In this document: positions 35,543 to 46,854 of the stretch, piece by piece | How positions within the stretch are numbered: position 1 is the stretch's first letter | Layout: every line of letters begins with the position of its first letter | NCBI GenBank assembly: GCA_001767075.1 | Contig: MEKX01000157.1 | Location: 1-53,573 of the forward strand | Origin: Acidobacteria bacterium RIFCSPLOWO2_12_FULL_54_10 | GTDB lineage: Bacteria > Acidobacteriota > Terriglobia > 2-12-FULL-54-10 | Reading direction: 5' to 3' | Length of the DNA stretch: 53,573 nt | Notes under the pieces: model-generated | What the model was told of the DNA's origin: nothing | What the model saw: the letters and a program-made list of their open reading frames with translations, nothing else | The model's database searches: none | Program-made: the position numbers and the translations under genes

Positions 35543-36013
35543 CTAGGCGGCGGCGACAGCACGCGACTCGGGCATAGTGTGTTCGCAAATCGCCTTTAAG
35601 GTATCCGCAACATCCGCGTAAGAGATATCCCCCTTGCGGTTGGCAGCGCGAACTGCCACGTCGTTGAGACTCAGAATGCCCTCCAGCGATCCCGATGAGC
35701 CCAGTACCGGCAGCCGCCGCACCTTCTCAGATTTCATAGTTTCCAGGGCTTCGTGGATATCATCCTCCGGGGCGCAAGCAAATAGCCTCCAGGCTACCAC
35801 TTCACCCGCTTCCACCTCCGAAGGGAGCCGGTTCCGTGTGCCGACCGCGATGCAGATGTCGCGATCCGTAATCATTCCGACTACCTTTCCCCCTTCGTCC
35901 ACTACGGGCAGGGTCCCACAGTTGGTGGTCCACAATAATTCGGCGGCCACTGCCAAGTTTGTATCAACCCGGCAGAACTTTGGCGCTGGAGTCATAATCT
36001 CTTTCACCTGCAT
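35543..36013 (-). CDS. CBS-pair protein
   Basis: A 156-residue protein made of two CBS domains, which bind adenosine nucleotides and act as energy or ligand sensors. The first: QVKEIMTPAPKFCRVDTNL, CGTLPVVDEGGKVVGMITDRDI. The second: RLFACAPEDDIHEALETM, VRRLPVLGSSGSLEGILSLNDVA. The tail is ADTLKAICEHTMPESRAVAAA. ATG 36013 has GGGGGATC upstream; a start at 36049 is less likely. No fused effector domain. The degenerate-receiver/zinc-ribbon pair lies 130 bases upstream on the same strand. Confidence 0.9.
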   Translation of the reverse strand: MQVKEIMTPAPKFCRVDTNLAVAAELLWTTNCGTLPVVDEGGKVVGMITDRDICIAVGTRNRLPSEVEAGEVVAWRLFACAPEDDIHEALETMKSEKVRRLPVLGSSGSLEGILSLNDVAVRAANRKGDISYADVADTLKAICEHTMPESRAVAAA

Positions 36014-36142: not shown

Positions 36143-36358
36143 TCATGCTGGCTTCCGCGTTTCATCCCAAACAGCAACGGCTGCTGGCAGACCGACAGGA
36201 TTGCGGTGGAAGCGCACCAGTCGGGGAAGGCGGAGGGCCAGGGAACGATCGGACCAGGACCACGGAATTCGCGCTCCGCATTCCAAGCAGCGGCAGTATT
36301 CTCCCTTTTCATCTCGCCGGGGAGATGTCTGGTTCCGGTGGTTGCACCAGAGGCCCAT
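36143..36358 (-). CDS. 71-residue zinc-ribbon-like protein, copy 1
   Basis: A tiny soluble protein. Its first 37 residues hold four possible metal ligands: C5/H7 in WCNHRNQ, then SPRRDEKGEYCRCLECGAR and PWSWSD. This matches the 71-residue protein at 41476-41691 over residues 4-37 (C-x-H-x-N-Q-T-x-P-R-R-D-E-x-G-E-Y and C-L-E-C-G-A-R-x-P-W-S-W-S-D), while the last 34 residues differ. A short zinc ribbon with CLxCG and an aromatic end is familiar to me from other acidobacterial proteins, but I cannot name the family. GCGGGGGGATTC precedes the ATG, which lies 12 bases after the stop of the degenerate receiver. It overlaps another minus frame (36040-36426) that has no support. Confidence 0.8.
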   Translation of the reverse strand: MGLWCNHRNQTSPRRDEKGEYCRCLECGARIPWSWSDRSLALRLPRLVRFHRNPVGLPAAVAVWDETRKPA

Positions 36359-36370
36359 GAATCCCCCCGC

Positions 36371-36790
36371 TTAGTTGGCCATCGCTTTGACATAAGAGGC
36401 GGCATGGTGCATCCGCCGCGCCTCATAGGACTCGACAGCTTGTTCCAGGACCGGGAGGACGGTGTAGTTTTGATAGGGCGCGACCAGCAAATCGAAGCCG
36501 CCAGCCTCCAGCACCTGCACCCATTCCTTCTCGCCTCCCGTCCCGCGGAAGATGATTACCGGCAAGTCCGGACTCAGTTGTTGAATTTGCCGTACGGCGG
36601 CATTCCATGAGTCCCGATGGAACGACCAATCGCAGAACACGGCATCGTAGCAGCCTTCGTCCAAAAGGGTTTGCAATTCCATCAGGCCCGTGACTTTGTG
36701 TAACGATACATGCTCGTCGAGAATTCTTTCCAGCCCGCTTGTTTCCGTCGCGGGATCGCTCAACAGGAGAACTTTCGGAAGGCTCAGCAT
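36371..36790 (-). CDS. Degenerate receiver-like protein, copy 1
   Basis: A 139-residue receiver-fold protein: PKVLLLSDPATETSGLERIL, LMELQTLLDEGCYDAVFCDW, LSPDLPVIIFRGTG, EWVQVLEAGGFDLLVAPYQ, VLPVLEQAVESYEARRM. The Asp of FCDW could be the phosphorylation site, but the N-terminal acidic pair is reduced (LLLSDP) and the Lys of the active site is replaced in LLVAPYQ. The ATG at 36790 is preferred over 36793: GGAGGT is six bases away and the N-terminus then matches the paralogue at 41045-41461. It is followed by the 71-residue zinc-ribbon gene. Whether it is phosphorylated is unclear. Confidence 0.82.
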   Translation of the reverse strand: MLSLPKVLLLSDPATETSGLERILDEHVSLHKVTGLMELQTLLDEGCYDAVFCDWSFHRDSWNAAVRQIQQLSPDLPVIIFRGTGGEKEWVQVLEAGGFDLLVAPYQNYTVLPVLEQAVESYEARRMHHAASYVKAMAN

Positions 36791-36900
36791 CATCCCACCT
36801 CCAACCCGAGTGAATCTTGGAGATGCGAAAATAAAATATTCCGATGGTCCTCGTCTGTCAGCTACCCAACAAAGTTCCAGCGGTTGGAAGCGAGACTCCC

Positions 36901-37254
36901 CTATTGATTGTTCTGAAGCCGGTATTCCCTGGGAGTAGCTCCGACTCGCTTGTGGAATATGGTGGTGAAGTGGGCCCGGCTAGCGAAGCCCAACCGCCGG
37001 GCGATCTCCGCGATTGTGAGAGGATTGTTGGACAGCAGTTGCTTGGCCTGTTCGATTCTCTGGCCTGTCAGGTACTGGTGAGGAGTCAACCCGGTGGCCT
37101 GCTTGAAGAGCCGTGCGAAATGGTAGGGGCTCAGCTGCACCAAATCTGCCATGGTGCGGAGCGTAATGTTTTCGTCCAAGTGGGTTCGAACGTAGTTTGT
37201 TACGAGGCGTAGCCTGGCGGGCGGCAATTCGTTTGCAGTGCGGGTCGGTATCAT
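36901..37254 (-). CDS. Short AraC-type transcription regulator
   Basis: A DNA-binding protein made essentially of the AraC domain: LRLVTNYVRTHLDENITLRTMADLVQ with LSPYHFARLFKQATGLTPHQYL (first helix-turn-helix) and LTIAEIARRLGFASRAHFTTIFHKRVGATPREYR (second; read as two parts). From ATG 37254 it has 117 residues and no ligand domain. The frame is open to 37539, but that part has neither a ribosome site nor a recognisable domain. It ends 110 bases before the degenerate-receiver gene on the same strand and may control the module. It is divergent from the first Crp/Fnr gene. Confidence 0.8.
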   Translation of the reverse strand: MIPTRTANELPPARLRLVTNYVRTHLDENITLRTMADLVQLSPYHFARLFKQATGLTPHQYLTGQRIEQAKQLLSNNPLTIAEIARRLGFASRAHFTTIFHKRVGATPREYRLQNNQ

Positions 37255-37668
37255 CAGGAGTGAAGGGCAATTGACTTTCCAAACCCGGCAGAGGTGTACA
37301 ACTCTTTTGGTTTCATTGTGCTTTGTCGGACTCCGAAACCGCCAATCAGATGGTTTGACGGTATTTCGATTCCCTGCCGAGTAAAGTACGTACAGTAGCG
37401 GAACCGTCCAATGAGAGCACCGAATTTCTAAGGGCAAAGTGTTAGTTACCTCACATTTCCGCAAGATTCCGAACATTTCCGCAAGAATCTGAAAGTGTTG
37501 GCGGGAAAGTAATTGACAGGCGAGATCACCATTGCTCAAGATAAAAGTGAGGGTTCAACACACGACATCAAAGGCGCGTTGTTTCTCTGGATTTCTCCCG
37601 AACCCAACGGGCCTTTTACCTCCTGCCGTCTGTAGTGAGCTACAGGTGGTATTCGCAGGAGGTGCGAG
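37255..37668. promoter_or_regulatory. Divergent region AraC / Crp-1
   Basis: 414 bases between the AraC gene (if it starts at 37254) and the first crp-like gene. It includes the open but unsupported extension of the AraC frame. AGGAGGTGCGAG at about 37657-37668 is the ribosome site of the GTG-started Crp gene. No clear Crp-type palindrome is seen. Confidence 0.4.
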
Positions 37669-38391
37669 GTGTCCCTTCTCCCCCTAGTTGATTTTTCCAA
37701 AAACCAAATCCTAGCCAATTTGCCCGACGAGGAATCCAAGCGTCTGCTACCTGATCTGCAGCTCCTATCGCCTCGCCTAAGCGACGTTGTCTATCGGTCC
37801 GGGGACCCCGTCCGCTACGCCTATTTCCCCCTCGATGCTGTGGTTTCCATCCTGGCTTCGATGGAAGATGGCAGGACCGTCGAGGTAACTCTAATAGGAA
37901 ACGAGGGCATCGTAGGAATCACGGCGCTGCTGGGCGGAAGTACGTCGGGGACCGTTGCGGTGGTCCAAGTTCCTGGCGACTACCTGAGGATAAAGGCGGA
38001 CGTGCTGCAGGCCGAATTCAGGCGCGGCGGCATGCTGAACCGCCGTCTGCTACGCTATATCAATTACCTTCTAGCTCAGATTTCACAAACGGCTGCCTGC
38101 AACCGCCTCCACCGACTGGAACAGCGGCTTGCCCGCTGGCTGCTGATGACCCACAATCGGGTACAGCGGGACGAATTTCCAATTACCCATGAATTCCTCT
38201 CCCATATGCTCGGAACACCGCGGTCGGAAGTGACCATCGCTGCCGGAATTCTCCAGAAGTCCTGGCTGATCCGATATGGGCGCGGCAGCGTAACGATCCT
38301 GGACCGTCCGGGATTGGAGGCCGTCGCCTGCGAATGCTTCCAAACGGATAGGGCTAGATTAAATGATCCCCCATCAGAAATGAAGCTGTGA
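37669..38391 (+). CDS. Crp/Fnr-type regulator, copy 1 of 3
   Basis: A 240-residue transcription regulator: cyclic-nucleotide-binding beta barrel (about 15-125: LLSPRLSDVVYRSGDPVRYAYFPLD, LIGNEGIVGITALLGG), dimer helix (RRLLRYINYLLAQISQTAACNR) and winged helix (HEFLSHMLGTPRSEVTIAAGIL, RGSVTILDRPGLEAVACECF). No Cys cluster for an iron-sulphur centre, and the cAMP-contact residues of E. coli CRP are not visible, so the ligand is unknown. The GTG start has AGGAGGT eight bases upstream. Two close paralogues follow in the same direction. Confidence 0.9.
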   Translation: MSLLPLVDFSKNQILANLPDEESKRLLPDLQLLSPRLSDVVYRSGDPVRYAYFPLDAVVSILASMEDGRTVEVTLIGNEGIVGITALLGGSTSGTVAVVQVPGDYLRIKADVLQAEFRRGGMLNRRLLRYINYLLAQISQTAACNRLHRLEQRLARWLLMTHNRVQRDEFPITHEFLSHMLGTPRSEVTIAAGILQKSWLIRYGRGSVTILDRPGLEAVACECFQTDRARLNDPPSEMKL

Positions 38392-38535
38392 GACACTGCT
38401 ACCAGTCCTAGCAGGATTGTTCTGGATGCCTAACTGACTAGGGTAAGGTGTTCTTTGCTTACGAAGTCGGGAGAAGGCCCTCCATCCCTGCCCTTTGTGC
38501 TGTTCGCAAGCGATGGAAGCGAGGAAGGTTGCAGG

Positions 38536-39243
38536 TTGACCGAGATATCCGAAGCCGATCTTAAAAAGAATCAGATTCTGGCGGCATTGCCCGAGAAGGA
38601 ATCCGAGCGCCTGCTACCCCATCTGCGATTCGTTTCTCTGAGCCTGGCACAAGTGCTCTATAAGCCGGAAGACACCATCCGCCACCTCTATTTCCCGCTC
38701 GATAGCGTAATTTCCTCGCTCGCTTCCATGGAAGACGGCAGGAGTGTTGAAATCAATCTTACTGGAGACGAAGGACTGCTGGGTCTTCGGGCGGTACTGG
38801 GAGCGAAAGTTTCTGGGTACTTTGCGATTGTCCAAGTTCCGGGCAAGGCCTTGAAAGTAGATGTAGACGTTCTTCGAGCGGAGTTTAAGCGCGGCGACGT
38901 GCTGCACGACAGGGTACTGCGCTATACCCGCTACCTTCTTTTTCAGGTTTCGCAAACTGCGGCTTGTAATCGCATCCACCGATTGGAACAGAGACTCGCC
39001 CGCTGGCTGCTGATGGTTCACAACCGCGCCAAGCGGGACGAATTTCCCATCACTCATGAATTCCTCTCCCAAATGCTCGGCACACCGCGCTCGGAGGTGA
39101 CCATCGCTGCCGGTATCCTACGCAAGGCCTGGCTTATCCGTTACTGGCGCGGCCGAATGACAATCCTCGACCGCCCGGGATTGGAATCGGCCACCTGCGA
39201 ATGTTATCGAGTCGTCACCAACGAGCTATGTAACCCCGGCTAG
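38536..39243 (+). CDS. Crp/Fnr-type regulator, copy 2 of 3
   Basis: A 235-residue paralogue of its neighbours, with the same domains: FVSLSLAQVLYKPEDTIRHLYFPLD, LTGDEGLLGLRAVLGAKVSG, RYTRYLLFQVSQTAACNR, RLARWLLMVHNRAKRDEFPI and LGTPRSEVTIAAGILRKAWL. The TTG at 38536 is chosen because GAGGAAGG lies about eight bases before it and because it gives exactly the length of copy 3; a TTG at 38455 would add 27 unconserved residues. The RYTRYLL and LLGLRAVLGAK forms group it with copy 3 rather than copy 1. Confidence 0.88.
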   Translation: MTEISEADLKKNQILAALPEKESERLLPHLRFVSLSLAQVLYKPEDTIRHLYFPLDSVISSLASMEDGRSVEINLTGDEGLLGLRAVLGAKVSGYFAIVQVPGKALKVDVDVLRAEFKRGDVLHDRVLRYTRYLLFQVSQTAACNRIHRLEQRLARWLLMVHNRAKRDEFPITHEFLSQMLGTPRSEVTIAAGILRKAWLIRYWRGRMTILDRPGLESATCECYRVVTNELCNPG

Positions 39244-39498
39244 AGCAGTGCCGGTGATGCATTCAGCCATGTGAAACGCTGGCGCGTCGCCAGTCACTCC
39301 ACCTCCCCCCCAATTGCAAGTGGGCCCATCCGAGAAGCGGGATCTGAATCTGCGGCTGTCCCGTCTTGGCGTGAGCGATTTAGTGGAAGGCCTGCACTGT
39401 CGTGCTCCCCGGATTTGGTCTGTTGGGAGGCTGACTGACGAGCCAGGAGAGGCCGTGCTCTCATATTCTTCAAATCTCAACGGTCCTATTCCTAGTCT

Positions 39499-40206
39499 AT
39501 GCTTGGCTCAACGCAACTCGGTCTGTCCCAAAATCAGATTCTCGCTGCCTTGTCCAGGGAAGAGACCAAAGACCTTCTGCCCAGTTTGGAGCTCATTTCT
39601 CTCCGTCCGGGTGAAATTCTCTACCGGCCCGGAGCTCCCATGCGCTACGTCTATTTCCCGCTGAATTCTGTGGTTTACTTGCTTGCGTCCATGGGAGGGG
39701 GCAGGACCGTCGAGGTGAATTTGATCGGAGAGGAAGGGATGCTGGGACTTCGGGCAGTATTGGGAGCAAAAACGTCTGGAAAGCTTGCTGCTGTGCACAT
39801 TCCCGGCAGCTGCTTGAGGATCAAAGCGAATGTGATTCAAGCTCAGTTCAAGCGGTGCGGCGGGCTGCACGATCGGCTACTTCGTTATACCCGCTATCTC
39901 CTTTGTCAGATTTCCCAAACGGCAGCCTGCAACCGGGGTCACTTGGTGGAACAGCGTTTGGCTCGCTGGTTGTTGATGGTTCATGATCGCGCGAAAAAGG
40001 ATGAGTTCCCCATAACTCACGCGCTGCTATCTGATATGCTCGGCACCCCGCGGTCGGAGGTAACCCTGGCGGCTGGAATGTTCCGTAAAGCTGACATAGT
40101 GAGGTACGTGCGCGGCAGAATCACAATTCTGAACCGCCGGAAATTAGAATCTACAGCTTGCCAGTGCTACCGCATCGTCTCCGACGAATTGGATCATCCA
40201 ATCTAG
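39499..40206 (+). CDS. Crp/Fnr-type regulator, copy 3 of 3
   Basis: A 235-residue regulator with LISLRPGEILYRPGAPMRYVYFPLN, LIGEEGMLGLRAVLGAKTSG, RYTRYLLCQISQTAACNR and LLSDMLGTPRSEVTLAAGMF. The recognition helix keeps LGTPRSEVT but the flanking wing differs (ADIVRYVRGRITILNRRKLE), so its DNA site may differ from those of copies 1 and 2. No good ribosome site precedes the ATG. It is separated from copy 2 by 255 bases without a gene. The three copies probably arose by tandem duplication followed by divergence. Confidence 0.88.
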   Translation: MLGSTQLGLSQNQILAALSREETKDLLPSLELISLRPGEILYRPGAPMRYVYFPLNSVVYLLASMGGGRTVEVNLIGEEGMLGLRAVLGAKTSGKLAAVHIPGSCLRIKANVIQAQFKRCGGLHDRLLRYTRYLLCQISQTAACNRGHLVEQRLARWLLMVHDRAKKDEFPITHALLSDMLGTPRSEVTLAAGMFRKADIVRYVRGRITILNRRKLESTACQCYRIVSDELDHPI

Positions 40207-40463
40207 CAAGAATCTTTCGGTCAGCGAGGACCTGTGAGAAATTCTGAGTGGCAATATCAAATGCAGTTGCACCGGAATTCCACTTTGAGAGCTACTATTC
40301 TCCCAAACCGGCCTCCCAGAGTTTTCATTTAATACTCCAGGCAAGAGAATAATTCCACGTAACTATCTCAATGTACACCAGTTAACAGATCTGCTTTCCT
40401 CCACTTGCTCCCTTGGCGATTCAGTTGCGAGAGGCAAAGGTGTGAGCAGTTAAGGAGGTCCCC

Positions 40464-40688
40464 ATGCAGGAGGCACTGGCGGAATTCAAGGAATTAAAGC
40501 AAATCAAAGAAAATGTTCGCCGAAACATAAACGCTCTCGAGTGTTGCTGGAACTGCCAAAGAATCTCTGAATGCGAACAAGGTCTTGGAGAAAGCGCTGC
40601 GGCGGTATGGCTTTGCACCGGGTGCCGAAGGAAGCTCTTAACCTGCCGACCAGGCCGGACCGGGGCATCTTGGCAACATTCGGCGTGA
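40464..40688 (+). CDS. Small Cys-rich protein, probable metal binder
   Basis: A 74-residue protein with a helical start (EALAEFKELKQIKENVRRN), then CCWNCQRISECEQG and, 12 residues on, WLCTGCRRK: a C-x2-C...C-x2-C arrangement fit for one zinc ion, with extra Cys nearby. AAGGAGGTCCCC precedes the ATG, the strongest ribosome site in this stretch. I do not recognise the family. It lies between the third Crp gene and the second receiver/zinc-ribbon pair. Confidence 0.68.
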   Translation: MQEALAEFKELKQIKENVRRNINALECCWNCQRISECEQGLGESAAAVWLCTGCRRKLLTCRPGRTGASWQHSA

Positions 40689-41044
40689 CACCAGCAAAGC
40701 AAGGCCGTACTCCGCTGTCTGTTTACCGTCGATCCATTGAATGAGAACTTGTCAATCAACGCTTTTGGATCCGAAGGATTCTCCCCGTTTTCATGTCGGC
40801 AATATGGCATTTGAATACCACTTCGTGAGTAAGCTCGTTCCCCTGACAATCAGTTTTTGAGCTCCTAGAAAGGCTCAACTCTTGCATTTTGTTGGTTCTG
40901 ATTAGATAGGCTGAATGGTCCCCGACTTGCCTTATACGGTGGAAGTGCAATTCACAGCAGCGGTGAGGGCCGGTGGGACAATGGGGCAAGAGGGTCAAAC
41001 CGTTGAGGAGAATGAGTTCGATGGATATTGCACGGAGGTGAGGG
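40689..41044. other. Intergenic upstream of module copy 2
   Basis: 356 bases before the second degenerate receiver. A minus frame (40756-41142) crosses into that gene and lacks a ribosome site. GGAGGTGAGGG at the right edge is the ribosome site of the next gene. Nothing else seen. Confidence 0.35.
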
Positions 41045-41461
41045 ATGCTGGCGTATCCGAAAGTTCTTCTGCTCAGTAGCGACGAAACGGAAACGAGTGT
41101 AATGGAAAAAATCCTCAGCGAGCACGTAATACTGCGGAGCATCGGAGACCTGGCCGAGTTGCGAAACCATCTGGATGGTGCCTATGACGCCCTGTTCTGC
41201 GGGTGGTCCTTTCAGAAAGGCGGCTGGAATGAAGCCTTGAGACAAGTTCGAAAACGCTGTCCCGACTTGCCAGTGGTGATTTTCTCCCGGGTGGGAGGGG
41301 AGCAGGAATGGGTCGAGGCGTTGGAAGCAGGTGCCTTTGACCTGCTGGTTGCGCCATATTTGAAACGCAATGTTCTCCCGCTCCTGGAACACGCCGTCGC
41401 CTCCCACGAAGCACGGCGCTGGCACAATGCAGCCTTTCGCAACAGCGCGATGGCCGTTTGA
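41045..41461 (+). CDS. Degenerate receiver-like protein, copy 2
   Basis: A 138-residue paralogue of 36371-36790: PKVLLLSSDETETSVMEKIL, YDALFCGWSFQKGGWNEALRQV, CPDLPVVIFSRVGGEQEWVEALEAG, AFDLLVAPYLKRNVLPLLEHA. The site that is FCDW in copy 1 is FCGW here, so the only candidate phospho-Asp is lost, as are the acidic pair and the Lys. Signalling by aspartyl phosphorylation is therefore unlikely, and it may act by binding. GGAGGT lies five bases before the ATG. The 71-residue zinc-ribbon gene follows after 14 bases. Confidence 0.82.
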   Translation: MLAYPKVLLLSSDETETSVMEKILSEHVILRSIGDLAELRNHLDGAYDALFCGWSFQKGGWNEALRQVRKRCPDLPVVIFSRVGGEQEWVEALEAGAFDLLVAPYLKRNVLPLLEHAVASHEARRWHNAAFRNSAMAV

Positions 41462-41475
41462 GCAGGGGGTAGAGC

Positions 41476-41691
41476 ATGATCCTCGGATGTAGACATCAAA
41501 ATCAGACGACCCCGCGGCGGGATGAGCTGGGAGAATATCGCCGCTGTTTGGAATGCGGTGCGCGGCTTCCCTGGTCCTGGTCGGATAGTTCACCGGCTTT
41601 CCCTCTGCCGAAGCATTCCCCGGCGCTCCAGGCGCCTGCTGTTCGTCAATCATTCGTTACGGTTTGGCATCTAGGGAAGAAATCGGCGTGA
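41476..41691 (+). CDS. 71-residue zinc-ribbon-like protein, copy 2
   Basis: Exactly as long as copy 1 (36143-36358). Possible ligands are C5 and H7 in GCRHQNQ and the pair in RRCLECGARLPWSWSD. Residues 5-37 are highly conserved between the copies and the rest is not, so the ribbon is the part under selection. GGGGGTAGAGC precedes the ATG. A seven-base stem (GCCAGCG 41696-41702, CGCTGGC 41717-41723) just after the stop could end the transcript. Binding of metal or nucleic acid is possible; no function is known to me. Confidence 0.8.
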   Translation: MILGCRHQNQTTPRRDELGEYRRCLECGARLPWSWSDSSPAFPLPKHSPALQAPAVRQSFVTVWHLGKKSA

Positions 41692-42014
41692 GGCCGCCAG
41701 CGCCGCCCGGCGGGAACGCTGGCTGGTCATTCCGGCAACGGACTGGAAGGATCCGGTTACCAGCGAACCTGGTGTCGTTTCCCTGTTTCTGACTGGAAAA
41801 AATCTGTGGCCGCATGTCCGGGAATGCGTTATTCTCTTGGAGATTGGGCAATCCGAACGGTCTGGACGGGAGGCATCGTTGGGGTCCGACCCTGGCACTG
41901 TGCTGAGAAACAAAATCATCGGCAATAGGCGTATTTTGGGGGATTGAGGGACAGGGGAATCAGTGGGACGGATTTCCAATAGTTACAAGTATCGAGCAGG
42001 AGGGAAAAGTATTT
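41692..42014. other. Upstream region of the stressosome operon
   Basis: 323 bases with the stem-loop at 41696-41723 next to the preceding stop, lacking a T-tract, and the ribosome site GGAGGG (near 42000) of rsbR. No gene is seen. The rsbR promoter must lie here. Confidence 0.4.
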
Positions 42015-42959
42015 ATGGCGGACAGCAAAAAGAGGGACAAGCGAACCAGAATTCCGGGCCCGTCATCGTTAGCATCGCCTATGGGGACAGCAATGCTAGA
42101 ATCCACGGCAGTGTTGCTCAGAGAGTTGGTATCCCACCTGCGGGAGAACCGCACCCAGTTGCGCGAGGAGTGGGCGCGGCGCATCACTGAATCCCAGTTG
42201 CTGGTGGCGATGACCCAAGAGGAGATCTTCAAGGAAGCTACCGCCGTGTACGACAACTACGTGGCGGTGCTGGAGACGGGCAGCGTTGAAGCTCTGGAGG
42301 CATACGCTCGGGACCTGTCGGAACGCATCATCCCGCGGGGCGTAGAAACCCGCGAGGTGTTGGGCATCGTGCTGCTGCTGCGCGACGTGCTGGCCCGCTC
42401 CCTGTTTAAGAAGTATCAGGCGGACTTTGGACTGCTGAACCGGGTCCTGGATGCCTATGAACCGGCCGCTAACCGCATCGCGAACACCGTGGGCGTCGGT
42501 TTCGTGCAAGAGCGCGAGCGCATCATCCGCCAGCAGCAGGAGGCCATCCGGGAACTTTCCACCCCGGTGCTGCAGGTCCGCGAGCGGCTGCTCATCTTAC
42601 CGATCATCGGCGTGATTGATCCGCAGCGCGCCCGCCAGGTGACCGAGCAACTCCTCCGCGGCATCCGGGCCAACCGCGCCAAAGTGGTGGTGATTGATAT
42701 CACCGGTGTTCCCTCTGTGGACTCAACGGTCGCCAATCACTTGGTGCAGACGGTGGACGCTTCCCGGCTGATGGGCGCTACCGTTATCGTCACCGGCTTG
42801 TCCTCCGAGATCGCCCAGACGCTGGTGACCATCGGAGTGGATCTGACGAAGATGAAGACCATCGGCGACTTGCAGGGAGGCATCGAGGAAGCTGAACGAC
42901 TGCTGGGTTACAGAGTCACGATGATGATGCAGGCCCCAGAACAAACTGCTGCGAAGTAA
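42015..42959 (+). CDS. rsbR: RsbR-type stressosome protein
   Basis: A 314-residue co-antagonist that builds the stressosome shell with RsbS. The N-terminal part (about 28-175) is an RsbRD-like helical sensor (LLRELVSHLRENRTQLREEWARRI), LGIVLLLRDVLARSL; the C-terminal STAS domain (about 185-300) has PIIGVIDPQRARQVTEQLL, VVVIDITGVPSVDSTVANHLV with the phosphorylatable Ser/Thr after VD, and GATVIVTGLSSEIAQTLVTIGVD. GGAGGG is ten bases before the ATG. It opens the rsbR-S-T-X-kinase operon; rsbS starts three bases after its stop. Confidence 0.93.
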   Translation: MADSKKRDKRTRIPGPSSLASPMGTAMLESTAVLLRELVSHLRENRTQLREEWARRITESQLLVAMTQEEIFKEATAVYDNYVAVLETGSVEALEAYARDLSERIIPRGVETREVLGIVLLLRDVLARSLFKKYQADFGLLNRVLDAYEPAANRIANTVGVGFVQERERIIRQQQEAIRELSTPVLQVRERLLILPIIGVIDPQRARQVTEQLLRGIRANRAKVVVIDITGVPSVDSTVANHLVQTVDASRLMGATVIVTGLSSEIAQTLVTIGVDLTKMKTIGDLQGGIEEAERLLGYRVTMMMQAPEQTAAK

Positions 42960-42962
42960 GCG

Positions 42963-43343
42963 ATGAGAGTTCCCATCCTCAAGCAAGGCGGTTATTTAAT
43001 TGCTTCCATTCAGTCCGCCCTCTCGGACTATGAGCTGCTCCAGCTCCGGGACGACCTGTCCGCGCAGGTGGGACGGTTCCGTTCCCGGGGAGTCATTGTG
43101 GATGTCACTGTGCTGGATGTGATGGACTCATTCGCCGTCCGAACTCTGCGTGCCATTGCCCAAATCGGCCACATGCGGGGAGCGGAAACGGTCATCGTCG
43201 GCATTCAGCCCGAGGTTGCCTTCGCGATGGTGCAGTTGGGCTTGGCGCTGGGTGACGTGGAGACCGCGCTGGATTTGGAAGAAGGCCTGGCGTTGTTGGA
43301 TCTCCGGACCAAGCGGGGCGAGAGCCATGTCACTGAAAGCTGA
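42963..43343 (+). CDS. rsbS: RsbS-type stressosome scaffold, STAS protein
   Basis: A 126-residue single STAS domain protein, the antagonist that holds RsbT in the stressosome until phosphorylated. VPILKQGGYLIASIQSALSD opens the domain; the phospho-Ser is Ser56 in VMDSFAVRTLRAIAQ, aligned with Ser59 of Bacillus RsbS; GAETVIVGIQPEVAFAMVQLG is the second helix region. It overlaps rsbT by 17 bases. Confidence 0.93.
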   Translation: MRVPILKQGGYLIASIQSALSDYELLQLRDDLSAQVGRFRSRGVIVDVTVLDVMDSFAVRTLRAIAQIGHMRGAETVIVGIQPEVAFAMVQLGLALGDVETALDLEEGLALLDLRTKRGESHVTES

Positions 43344-43734
43344 AATCCATATTCCCATCAATTCCGACGCTGACATTGTGACAGCCCGCCAGCAAGGGCG
43401 GGAGCTGGCGCAGCAGGCGGGTTTCAATGGCAGCGACCTGACCGTCATCTCCACGGCGATTTCCGAAGTGGCTCGCAACATCGTAGAGCATGCGCGGTCG
43501 GGAGAGATCGTCCTCAGCGTTGCCAATGGCCCCGGACGGTCTGGCCTCGTCGTAGTGGCTCGTGATCATGGGCCCGGCATACTGGACATCTCTCTGGCCA
43601 TGCAAGACGGCTATTCTACCGGAAAAGGCTTAGGGCTGGGTTTGCCGGGGACCCGCCGTTTGATGGATGAATTTGAAATCACTTCCAAGCCGGGGGCCGG
43701 GACCACCGTGACCATGAAGAAGTGGAGGCGGTGA
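43327..43734 (+). CDS. rsbT: RsbT serine kinase
   Basis: A 135-residue GHKL-fold switch kinase that phosphorylates RsbR and RsbS and, once free, binds the RsbU-type N-terminal domain of its target. The N-box is AISEVARNIVEHA (Glu47, Asn51), followed by RDHGPGI (80-85) and the lid GLGLGLPG (101-108), all intact. ATG 43327 overlaps the end of rsbS and is preceded by GGGGCGAGAG. Its target here is probably the kinase at 44359-46854. Compare the motif-less paralogue at 24525-24914. Confidence 0.94.
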   Translation: MSLKAEIHIPINSDADIVTARQQGRELAQQAGFNGSDLTVISTAISEVARNIVEHARSGEIVLSVANGPGRSGLVVVARDHGPGILDISLAMQDGYSTGKGLGLGLPGTRRLMDEFEITSKPGAGTTVTMKKWRR

Positions 43735-43735
43735 C

Positions 43736-44362
43736 GTGTCGCGAGGGACTCCGCAGACAATGCGGCTGGTAGAGTATGCCACCGCTAGTATGATAATTCC
43801 GGGGGAGTCGGAATCGGGCGACCGCTATATTGCTGCTCCCACGCCAACCGGGGCGCTGATCGCGGTGATCGATGGCCTGGGGCATGGAGTGGAGGCGGCG
43901 GAGGCCTCCAAAGTGGCCGTGGCGACGCTGGAACGTTACGCCTCGGAATCCGTCATCGCATTGATTCGACGCTGTAACGAAGCAATGAAAACAACGCGCG
44001 GCGCGGTGATGAGCCTGGCCTCGTTCAGCGCCCAGAACCACACCATGACTTGCCTGGGCGTGGGCAATGTGGAAGGCGTCTTGCTGCGCACGGATGCGCA
44101 GGCGGGCCAGTCGCGGGAAAGCATTTTGATGCGCGGCGGAGTGGTCGGCTTTCGGCTCCCCACACTGCGAGCCTTGGTCATGCCTGTTTCGCCCGGAGAC
44201 ATTTTGATTCTTGCCACCGACGGCATTCGGAGCGGTTTTGAGATCAACCTGAGCATCAGTGCCCCGCTGCAGCAGATCGCCGACACTATTTGCAGCCAAC
44301 ACGGGAAAGGTACTGATGACGCCCTGGTATTGGTGGCCCGATATATGGGAGACGGGTCATGA
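43736..44362 (+). CDS. rsbX: RsbX-type PP2C phosphatase
   Basis: A 208-residue SpoIIE/PP2C-like phosphatase that should dephosphorylate RsbR and RsbS to reset the stressosome. The metal-binding motifs are ESGDRYIA, GALIAVIDGLGHG, LASFSAQNHTMTCLGVGNVEG, GDILILATDGIRSGF and GTDDALVLVARY. It lacks an extra sensor domain, like RsbX and unlike RsbU. The GTG start follows the rsbT stop by one base; its TGA overlaps the ATG of the next gene as ATGA. Confidence 0.92.
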   Translation: MSRGTPQTMRLVEYATASMIIPGESESGDRYIAAPTPTGALIAVIDGLGHGVEAAEASKVAVATLERYASESVIALIRRCNEAMKTTRGAVMSLASFSAQNHTMTCLGVGNVEGVLLRTDAQAGQSRESILMRGGVVGFRLPTLRALVMPVSPGDILILATDGIRSGFEINLSISAPLQQIADTICSQHGKGTDDALVLVARYMGDGS

Positions 44363-46854
44363 GCGATATCTTGGACCAATTGACGAAGCAATATGCAGCC
44401 GCACTGCACGACTTTCTTGCGGTGGGAGGGGAGGCCGCGTTGCGCCGGGCTTATGAGCTAGGGCGCCAAGCCATTGCCGACCGGGTGGGCGTTCTGGAAA
44501 TGTTCGCAATCCATAGCAGGTTGATTACGACAACCTTCGCGGTTCCCGTCCCGCGTGAACCGGCTATGCAAATCTCCGAGCGGGCCGCGGCGTTTTTTGC
44601 CGAATGCTTGTCGCCTTTTGAAATGGCACTGGGCGGTTACCAGGAAGCGAACGAGTCGCTGCGCGTTAAGGTCGAACAGATTCAGGCAGCCGAAAAGGAA
44701 GCGCAGCTGCAGAACCAGGAATTGGTGGCCGCCTACCGGTCCGTAGAAATGGAGCGCCGTCGCTACCAGGAACTGTTTGATTTTGCTCCAGACGCCTACT
44801 TGATCACGGATCTGGGCGCCATTATCCAGGAGGCTAACACCCCGGCGGCCGCCCTGCTTCAGCGCCATCAAGACCTTCTGGTAGGCGAGTCCTTGTCCTC
44901 TTTCGTAGTCGAGGAAGAGCTGCAATCGTTTCTGGGCCAATTGGCACGGCTTCGGAATGGGGAACCAGAAAAATTGGAATTCTGGCAACTGGCGGTGCAG
45001 CGCCCCAATGGCAGATCCATCCCTGTTTCCCTCACCGTGGGAATCGTGCGCGATCCGCACGGCGTGCCTGTGGGCCTGCGCTGTCTGCTGCGCGACATCA
45101 CGGAAAGGAAACGACTGGAGGAGGAGAGATCTCAACTTCGCGTTCGGGAGCATCTGGCTCGCACGGAGTCCGAGGCGGCCCAACGACTAAAGTTCCTAGC
45201 GGAAGCGAGCACCGCCTTGACAGGTTCCCTGGACTACGAGTCCATCCCGGCCAATATCGCGCGTCTTGCGGTGCCGCACCTGGCAGATGGTTGTTTTGTG
45301 CACCTGACTGATGATTCGATGGCTATCCGTCATTTTGCAGCGGCCCATAAGGACTCCGGGAAAGCGGAGTTCCTGGAAGGGCTGCAATCCCACAAGCCCC
45401 AACGAGAGTTGCCGCCTCCCGTAGCGGAGGTCTTACGTAGGGGAAGACCGGAAATTATCCTGGAAATCTCCGATGCCTGGCTGGAAGGTTTTGCCGGCGG
45501 GCCCGAGGATTTCAAAATTCTGCGCAACATGAACTTTACGTCTGCATTAGTGGTGCCGCTTATTACGCCGGGACGCCTGCTGGGAGCGATTACCTTAGGA
45601 AGCGCCGCATCGAATCGTCTCTATACTGCCGAGGACGTTGCTCTGGCGGATGTATTTGCCCGTCGCTGCGCTTTGGTTCTTGAAAACGCCAGACTCTACC
45701 AGCAGGTCGTCATTGAACGGGACAAGGCCGAAAGGGCCAGCCAGGCGAAAGAGGAATTTGTGGCAGTCCTCAGCCATGAGCTGAGGACTCCTCTGATGGC
45801 AATCCTTGGTTGGGCGCGCCTTCTGAACAGGCAGCCTCAGATCATGACGAATAAGGACCTCGGCGACGGAATCCGATCATTAGAGCACAATGCCCAAACG
45901 ATCGCCCGGCTGGTCGATGATTGCCTGGACGTAGCCCGGATTTCCGAAGGCAAGATTAAACTGCAAAGGGAATTGGTAGATCTGAATCAGGTGGCCAAGG
46001 CAGCCTCTGCGGCTACTGGTGAAATGGCTCATGCCAAGCGAATCCGGTTCGCGATACACTCCTCGGGCTCCAGCCTCACTGTTTCCGGCGACAAGACTCG
46101 ACTGGAACAAGTGCTGCTGAACTTGCTGACAAATGCTATCAAATATACCGAGAGAGGTGGCGAAATTTCTGTCAATTTGCGCCAGGCAGGCAAGGAAGGA
46201 GAAATCGAAGTGCGGGACACGGGGATCGGGATCGATCCCGATTTCATTGAGCAAATCTTTCAGCCTTTCGGCCAAGGGACTATGAATTGGTTTGCCTCCG
46301 AGTCCGGCCTCGGACTGGGACTCGCCATCGCGCGCGAGATTGTCCAGATGCATGGCGGCCGTATTTGGGCCGAGAGTTCCGGACGAGGACGTGGAAGCAC
46401 TTTCCGTCTGCAGTTGCCGCTAACTCCGGTTGCCGTGCTGCAGAAGGATGTTGGTTCGCAACAACTGTCTGTCCTGCCGGAGGTCAAACCGTTGCGGATA
46501 TTGTTCGTAGAAGATTCTAGGGATGTTCTCAATTTGCTTCGGATAGAGCTGGAAGCGTTGGGTTATTCCGTCCTGATGGCAGCGGACGGCGAGAGCGGAT
46601 TGGAAATCGCTAAACGGGAACTGCCGGATGTGCTTGTTTCAGACATTAAGATGCCACGGTTTGACGGATACCAATTAATTGAGCAGGTCCGCAGGATCCC
46701 GCAGTTAGCTGCAATTCCTGCCATCGCCCTGACTGGTTTTGGCAGGAGCAAGGATGTCGAAAAAGCTCTCCACGCCGGGTATAATGCCCACCTTTGCAAG
46801 CCTGTCGAGCTGAACGAACTGATTGCTGTGATTCAAAAACTAGCTTCCGTGTGA
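44359..46854 (+). CDS. RsbU_N-PAS-GAF hybrid histidine kinase
   Basis: An 831-residue soluble hybrid kinase. Residues 1-95 resemble the RsbT-binding N-terminal domain of RsbU (LTKQYAAALHDFLAVGGEAALRRAYELGRQAI, in two parts around FLAVGG; VLEMFAIHSRLI). Then come a coiled coil, PAS (about 140-255), GAF (about 275-450), HisKA with the His in AVLSHELRTPLMAILGW, HATPase (NLLTNAIKYTERGG, DTGIGIDPDFIEQIFQPFGQ, GLGLGLAIAREIVQ) and a receiver (about 705-825; RILFVEDSRDVLN, LVSDIKMPRFDGYQ, IALTGFGRSKD, LCKPVEL). It has no membrane segment. Coupled by an ATGA overlap to rsbX, it takes the place that rsbU has in Bacillus, so free RsbT may set its activity. Confidence 0.92.
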   Translation: MSDILDQLTKQYAAALHDFLAVGGEAALRRAYELGRQAIADRVGVLEMFAIHSRLITTTFAVPVPREPAMQISERAAAFFAECLSPFEMALGGYQEANESLRVKVEQIQAAEKEAQLQNQELVAAYRSVEMERRRYQELFDFAPDAYLITDLGAIIQEANTPAAALLQRHQDLLVGESLSSFVVEEELQSFLGQLARLRNGEPEKLEFWQLAVQRPNGRSIPVSLTVGIVRDPHGVPVGLRCLLRDITERKRLEEERSQLRVREHLARTESEAAQRLKFLAEASTALTGSLDYESIPANIARLAVPHLADGCFVHLTDDSMAIRHFAAAHKDSGKAEFLEGLQSHKPQRELPPPVAEVLRRGRPEIILEISDAWLEGFAGGPEDFKILRNMNFTSALVVPLITPGRLLGAITLGSAASNRLYTAEDVALADVFARRCALVLENARLYQQVVIERDKAERASQAKEEFVAVLSHELRTPLMAILGWARLLNRQPQIMTNKDLGDGIRSLEHNAQTIARLVDDCLDVARISEGKIKLQRELVDLNQVAKAASAATGEMAHAKRIRFAIHSSGSSLTVSGDKTRLEQVLLNLLTNAIKYTERGGEISVNLRQAGKEGEIEVRDTGIGIDPDFIEQIFQPFGQGTMNWFASESGLGLGLAIAREIVQMHGGRIWAESSGRGRGSTFRLQLPLTPVAVLQKDVGSQQLSVLPEVKPLRILFVEDSRDVLNLLRIELEALGYSVLMAADGESGLEIAKRELPDVLVSDIKMPRFDGYQLIEQVRRIPQLAAIPAIALTGFGRSKDVEKALHAGYNAHLCKPVELNELIAVIQKLASV

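Follow-up and report, generated by a model that had tools for sequence, protein, structure and literature searches.

Two inverted copies of a two-gene cassette, each coding for a single-domain pseudo-receiver (recA, recB) and a tiny, probably zinc-binding ribbon protein (ribA, ribB), are found in the draft genome (88.6% complete) of Acidobacteria bacterium RIFCSPLOWO2_12_FULL_54_10, an acidobacterium of soil and groundwater. The cassette combines parts of familiar kinds in a way that is new and specific to its lineage, and we tentatively read it as a family-restricted accessory of a stressosome locus, an adapter pair that would act independently of phosphorylation. Such a stressosome accessory is not described in the literature searched. 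The features of the island within the window, by which we mean the whole stretch of 53,573 nt that was analysed (contig MEKX01000157.1), are summarised in Table 1.

Table 1. Features of the inverted island and its flanks, in window coordinates.
Feature	Position	Strand	Evidence or remarks
CBS-domain protein, 3' of ribA on the same strand	35543..36013	-	
ribA, probable one-zinc ribbon, 71 aa, C-x-H ... C-x-x-C	36143..36358	-	disordered tail, terminus WDETRKPA
recA, pseudo-receiver, 139 aa, single domain	36371..36790	-	Response_reg 4.3e-07 (Pfam), residue alignment
AraC-family regulator	36901..37539	-	
Direct repeat, operator-like, 2 x ACATTTCCGCAAGAWTCNGA, 20-bp spacing	37453..37492	.	
Crp/Fnr-type paralogue 1	37669..38391	+	without counterpart in the G001 island
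Crp/Fnr-type paralogue 2	38455..39243	+	start uncertain
Crp/Fnr-type paralogue 3	39499..40206	+	
Small Cys4 protein	40464..40688	+	
recB, pseudo-receiver, 138 aa	41045..41461	+	Asp to Gly; AF2 receiver fold
ribB, probable one-zinc ribbon, 71 aa	41476..41691	+	terminus WHLGKKSA
RsbR-type stressosome scaffold, RsbRD_N + STAS	42015..42959	+	Pfam
RsbS-type STAS protein	42963..43343	+	Pfam
RsbT-type kinase, HATPase_c_2	43330..43734	+	Pfam; start inferred
SpoIIE/PP2C-type phosphatase, RsbX-like position	43736..44362	+	Pfam
Hybrid histidine kinase, RsbU_N-PAS-GAF-HisKA-HATPase-receiver	44359..46854	+	Pfam

A first-pass annotation of this DNA had described two gene pairs in the same order and in inverted orientation, with gaps of 12 nt (recA/ribA) and 14 nt (recB/ribB), small proteins of 71 aa in both, and an AraC gene, three Crp-type genes and a small Cys-rich ORF between the copies; matching of the translations confirms all of this at the positions in Table 1. 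The 3' neighbour of copy A is a CBS-domain gene, for which the start ATG at 36013 was picked by homology to the island in a second genome. The 3' neighbour of copy B is, by gene content, a predicted stressosome operon, with RsbR, RsbS, RsbT and PP2C/SpoIIE genes contiguous on one strand (Pfam matches at or above thresholds), a context absent from that annotation. Window positions 39217-44326 recur at 99.96% identity in a 5.1-kb scaffold (L065) filed under 'Gammaproteobacteria bacterium RIFCSPLOWO2_02_FULL_56_15'; that scaffold was probably mis-binned into the public gammaproteobacterial draft.

Judged by their alignments, the two copies are homologous far beyond chance: recB matches recA with E=1.1e-47 (59-60% identity), ribB matches ribA with E=3.1e-20 (55% identity in the match, 51% by full alignment), and the copies, on opposite strands, share 68.5% DNA identity over 572 bp. 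The DNA similarity begins ~12 bp 5' of the receiver start codon and ends within the ribbon gene, near the end of its conserved core, and hence copies A and B have no common promoter region beyond that short stretch. The same inverted layout occurs in Acidobacteria bacterium isolate NC_groundwater_1065_Ag_S2p5_55_111 (G001), which belongs to a second genus of the host's family. There, the left side has CBS, ribbon and receiver genes and the right side has receiver, ribbon and rsbR; between the two sides lie genes for an AraC regulator and a small Cys4 protein, and the three Crp genes are missing, their place being taken by a VWA protein and a second small Cys protein. This synteny indicates that the island predates the split of the two genera, and it is synteny only that speaks for an ancestral duplication, since the AU test does not separate that history from a within-genome grouping of the A and B copies (p 0.15-0.80); trees of the four module copies likewise leave A/B orthology across genera unsettled. 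Receiver and ribbon are both intact in all four copies, 9-30 nt apart, with synonymous sites near saturation (pS ~0.5-0.8). Both genes of the pair code for protein under purifying selection, and in the small frames, where such selection had been in question, it was found, with a pN/pS of ~0.2 in the ribbon core against ~0.75 in the tail.

Between the two copies, a 20-bp direct repeat at the 5' end of the AraC ORF is conserved in G001 (L051 3823-3862) and could be an AraC operator; the host and G001 genomes have one such site each, with no further sites that would make up a regulon. As the conserved repeat lies inside the ORF, the annotated AraC start is probably too far upstream. The three tandem Crp/Fnr-type paralogues (37669-40206) have ~68-73% DNA identity to each other, and their absence from the G001 island rules them out as part of the unit. 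The small Cys4 protein (LELCWxCQxxxEC...PVWLCxxC) is found in two to three copies, at varied loci, in all seven genomes of the family.

The description of the larger proteins as degenerate receivers is upheld by an alignment of the acidobacterial receiver family, in which phosphorylation residues are missing. A pseudo-receiver domain is defined as a receiver fold without at least one of the five residues DD, D, T/S and K (PMC12632262), and by that definition recA, recB and their relatives are pseudo-receivers, given their receiver (beta-alpha)5 fold and the loss of the Lys and the first acidic residue. Pfam Response_reg matches lie at or near threshold, and the AF2 model of recB (pLDDT 93.9) has a receiver fold with a long C-terminal helix, matching the DctD receiver with E=2e-08 (Foldseek). 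Continued phosphorylation of the receivers by the hybrid kinase, with the ribbon incidental, is very improbable: recA and 26 of the 40 family members do retain the phospho-acceptor Asp, but all 40 have replaced both the Lys and the first acidic residue, recA itself lacks the Lys and the full acid pair, and three module copies out of four (recB and both from G001) have Gly in place of the Asp. By the criterion for an aspartate-less receiver (ALR; Asp missing), recB and both G001 copies would be counted in and recA would not. A stretch resembling LPDG-x-W often follows the Asp position (conserved D-x-x-L-P-D-G-x-W). This single-domain family spans the Acidobacteria, with several members per genome. 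Elsewhere in the host's family, receivers of the same clade adjoin universal stress protein genes, recognised by Pfam at one locus (L057) and by sequence resemblance at two others (L135, L144).

Among 29 ribbon sequences drawn from several families of the class, C5, H7, C24 and C27 are invariant or nearly so (at least 90% conserved), which points to one probable zinc site per protein, with two ligand pairs on a predicted beta-hairpin core. The hairpin is modelled with a pLDDT of ~92 at residues 11-30, and model confidence is low in the tail, as expected for disorder. The tails had been thought to diverge completely, and this does not hold: mean identity, taken over five ribbons, falls from 73% across the first 37 residues to 17% across the middle 24 and is 53% across the last 8, and all four module ribbons, together with a fifth from another genome of the family (G003), end in W-x(4)-[KR]K[SP]A. 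This terminal motif is carried by 5/5 ribbons of stressosome islands against 0/4 other ribbons of the family (Fisher p=0.008, phylogeny ignored), a contrast that descent may explain as well as function.

Searches of the ribbon against Pfam, NCBIfam and PDB sequences returned sub-threshold matches only, and a fold search with its model gave no significant match. Membership of the HVO_0758 mu-proteins (PF23137) is rejected at 14 bits against a curated cut-off of 27. A nucleic-acid or RNA-polymerase-binding effector regulated by the pseudo-receiver, the two forming a two-polypeptide regulator of transcription or translation, is improbable: the basic residues of the ribbon core (PRRDExGEYxRC) and a weak profile resemblance to RPAB4, aIF2-beta and Rpb12 ribbons would suit it, but all three of those matches are sub-threshold, no fold match accompanies them, and HVO_0758 and LysW-like ribbons match equally weakly. 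Tiny proteins of the form C-x-H...Y-x-x-C-L-D-C-G-x-x-x-[PW][YW]-[SD]-W, for which there is no Pfam model, occur across the class (L079-L094); some have a hydrophobic N-terminal stretch, and sigma-24 and anti-sigma-like genes lie near some of them.

The pairing of receiver and ribbon was followed by profile scans, which covered 299 genomes of the class for the ribbon, 200 for the receiver, and ~400 genomes of the phylum, with most unpaired loci examined 1.5 kb to either side. Outside the two islands, a ribbon lies beside none of 41 receiver loci and a receiver of the recA/recB family beside none of 27 other ribbon loci, and the phylum scan added no further pairs. In these scans the pairing is therefore restricted to one family, in two related genera and one island. 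It had been proposed that the adjacency marks a general two-gene unit; in other acidobacterial genomes, receiver homologues lack a following ribbon and most ribbons stand without a receiver, which is largely what had been named in advance as telling against that proposal. Thus, of the signalling unit kept twice, what stands is a conserved duplicated cassette with a degenerate receiver and a probable zinc ribbon, and its generality does not. Of the unpaired receivers, the nearest ones (G002, G003) have no ribbon adjacent: G002, which has the closest of them, lacks a ribbon, and G003 has both genes at separate places. G004 has ribbons and no receiver of the recA/recB family, and the ribbons of G004 and G005 occur without rsbR and without a paired receiver. 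Single absences are soft, as the drafts are 82-100% complete. At one of the 27 ribbon loci (L098), a ribbon that is more divergent lies opposite a normal NtrC-type regulator.

An association of the ribbon with the stressosome is seen within the family. Three of its seven genomes have rsbR, each with a ribbon as the closest recognised gene on the upstream side; the ribbon of G003 is divergently oriented and unpaired. Outside the family, 0/27 rsbR loci have a ribbon or pseudo-receiver, which rules out the ribbon as a general stressosome component. In three genomes of another family (L177, L178, L181), a response-regulator gene lies divergently upstream of rsbR, and its acidic residues look normal. 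RsbU_N is the RsbT-binding domain of RsbU, and the hybrid kinase that carries it N-terminally is likely to be the RsbT output of the acidobacterial stressosome. RsbU_N kinases adjoining stressosome genes have been reported from Proteobacteria (PMC12143880), and so this route from RsbT to a kinase is already a known idea.

The two genes may, on the other hand, be functionally independent neighbours, with an adjacency that became fixed on a single occasion and gained its second copy through one inverted duplication, with the ribbon a stand-alone acidobacterial protein that landed by rsbR and the receiver an independent pseudo-receiver. We regard this as a possible, if somewhat doubtful, account: both families are single nearly everywhere, the G003 ribbon lies by rsbR without a receiver and no fusion of receiver and ribbon was seen, but both partners survive in both copies and both genera despite near-saturated synonymous divergence, and the gaps between them are short and operon-like.

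The reading as a stressosome accessory draws on the layout kept in G001 with both genes in all four copies, a strongly constrained ribbon core despite near-saturated synonymous sites, the loss of phosphorylation residues in a confident receiver fold, the ribbon's place next upstream of rsbR in each of the three family genomes that have rsbR, the terminal motif of the island ribbons and the precedent of proteobacterial RsbU_N kinases (PMC12143880). It is the stressosome neighbourhood, together with the receivers beside universal stress protein genes, that makes the cassette look like an accessory of stress signalling. Against it weigh the origin of all pairing evidence from one homologous island, and thus from one or two independent events, the exceptions in G002, G003, G004 and G005 to the pairing or to the rsbR association, the bare rsbR loci outside the family, and a motif contrast confounded by shared descent. 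On the stressosome-accessory reading, the pseudo-receiver would act as a docking subunit without phosphorylation and would form a complex with the co-translated ribbon, whose terminal peptide (W...KK-S-A) would tether both proteins to some component of the stressosome or kinase. The tethered pair would then tune RsbT-to-hybrid-kinase output, with its dose, under the control of the local AraC and Crp regulators, as the input in place of phosphorylation. Gene order, conservation, the lost phosphorylation residues, the fold class and the stressosome neighbourhood are observed; docking, complex formation and abundance as input are what we infer, with contact to the partner putative. A more specific form of this reading, in which pseudo-receiver and ribbon with its docking peptide are a dedicated adapter linking the stressosome to the hybrid histidine kinase, seems unlikely.

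The cassette points to an acidobacteria-wide pseudo-receiver family and to a tiny one-zinc family without a Pfam model. Its pseudo-receiver, which is short, soluble and single-domain, has a candidate dedicated small partner and is present twice beside a stressosome, making the cassette a compact system for studying the binding targets of these domains. No paper on small zinc proteins with response regulators in Acidobacteria came up in a literature search, and the available part of the review PMC12632262 describes no zinc-ribbon partner for pseudo-receivers or atypical response regulators. Like FrzS, the ShkA PsR, NblR and ChxR (PMC12632262), recA and recB have a receiver fold without conserved phosphorylation residues and are expected to act by protein contacts; unlike them, they are stand-alone, with a conserved D-x-x-L-P-D-G-x-W and an operon-like zinc-ribbon neighbour. 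The ribbons resemble the HVO_0758 (PF23137) mu-proteins and other C-x-H / C-x-x-C ribbons in being short with few zinc ligands, and differ from HVO_0758 in falling below the Pfam cut-off, in a single CHCC site and in the [PW]-[YW]-S-W signature. The operon that follows copy B has the same core genes and RsbU_N kinase as the RsbR-RsbS-RsbT-RsbX stressosome module with RsbU_N-type output (PMC12143880; papers on the Vibrio vulnificus stressosome), but, unlike that module, it has an extra pseudo-receiver and ribbon pair upstream, found only in the host's acidobacterial family.
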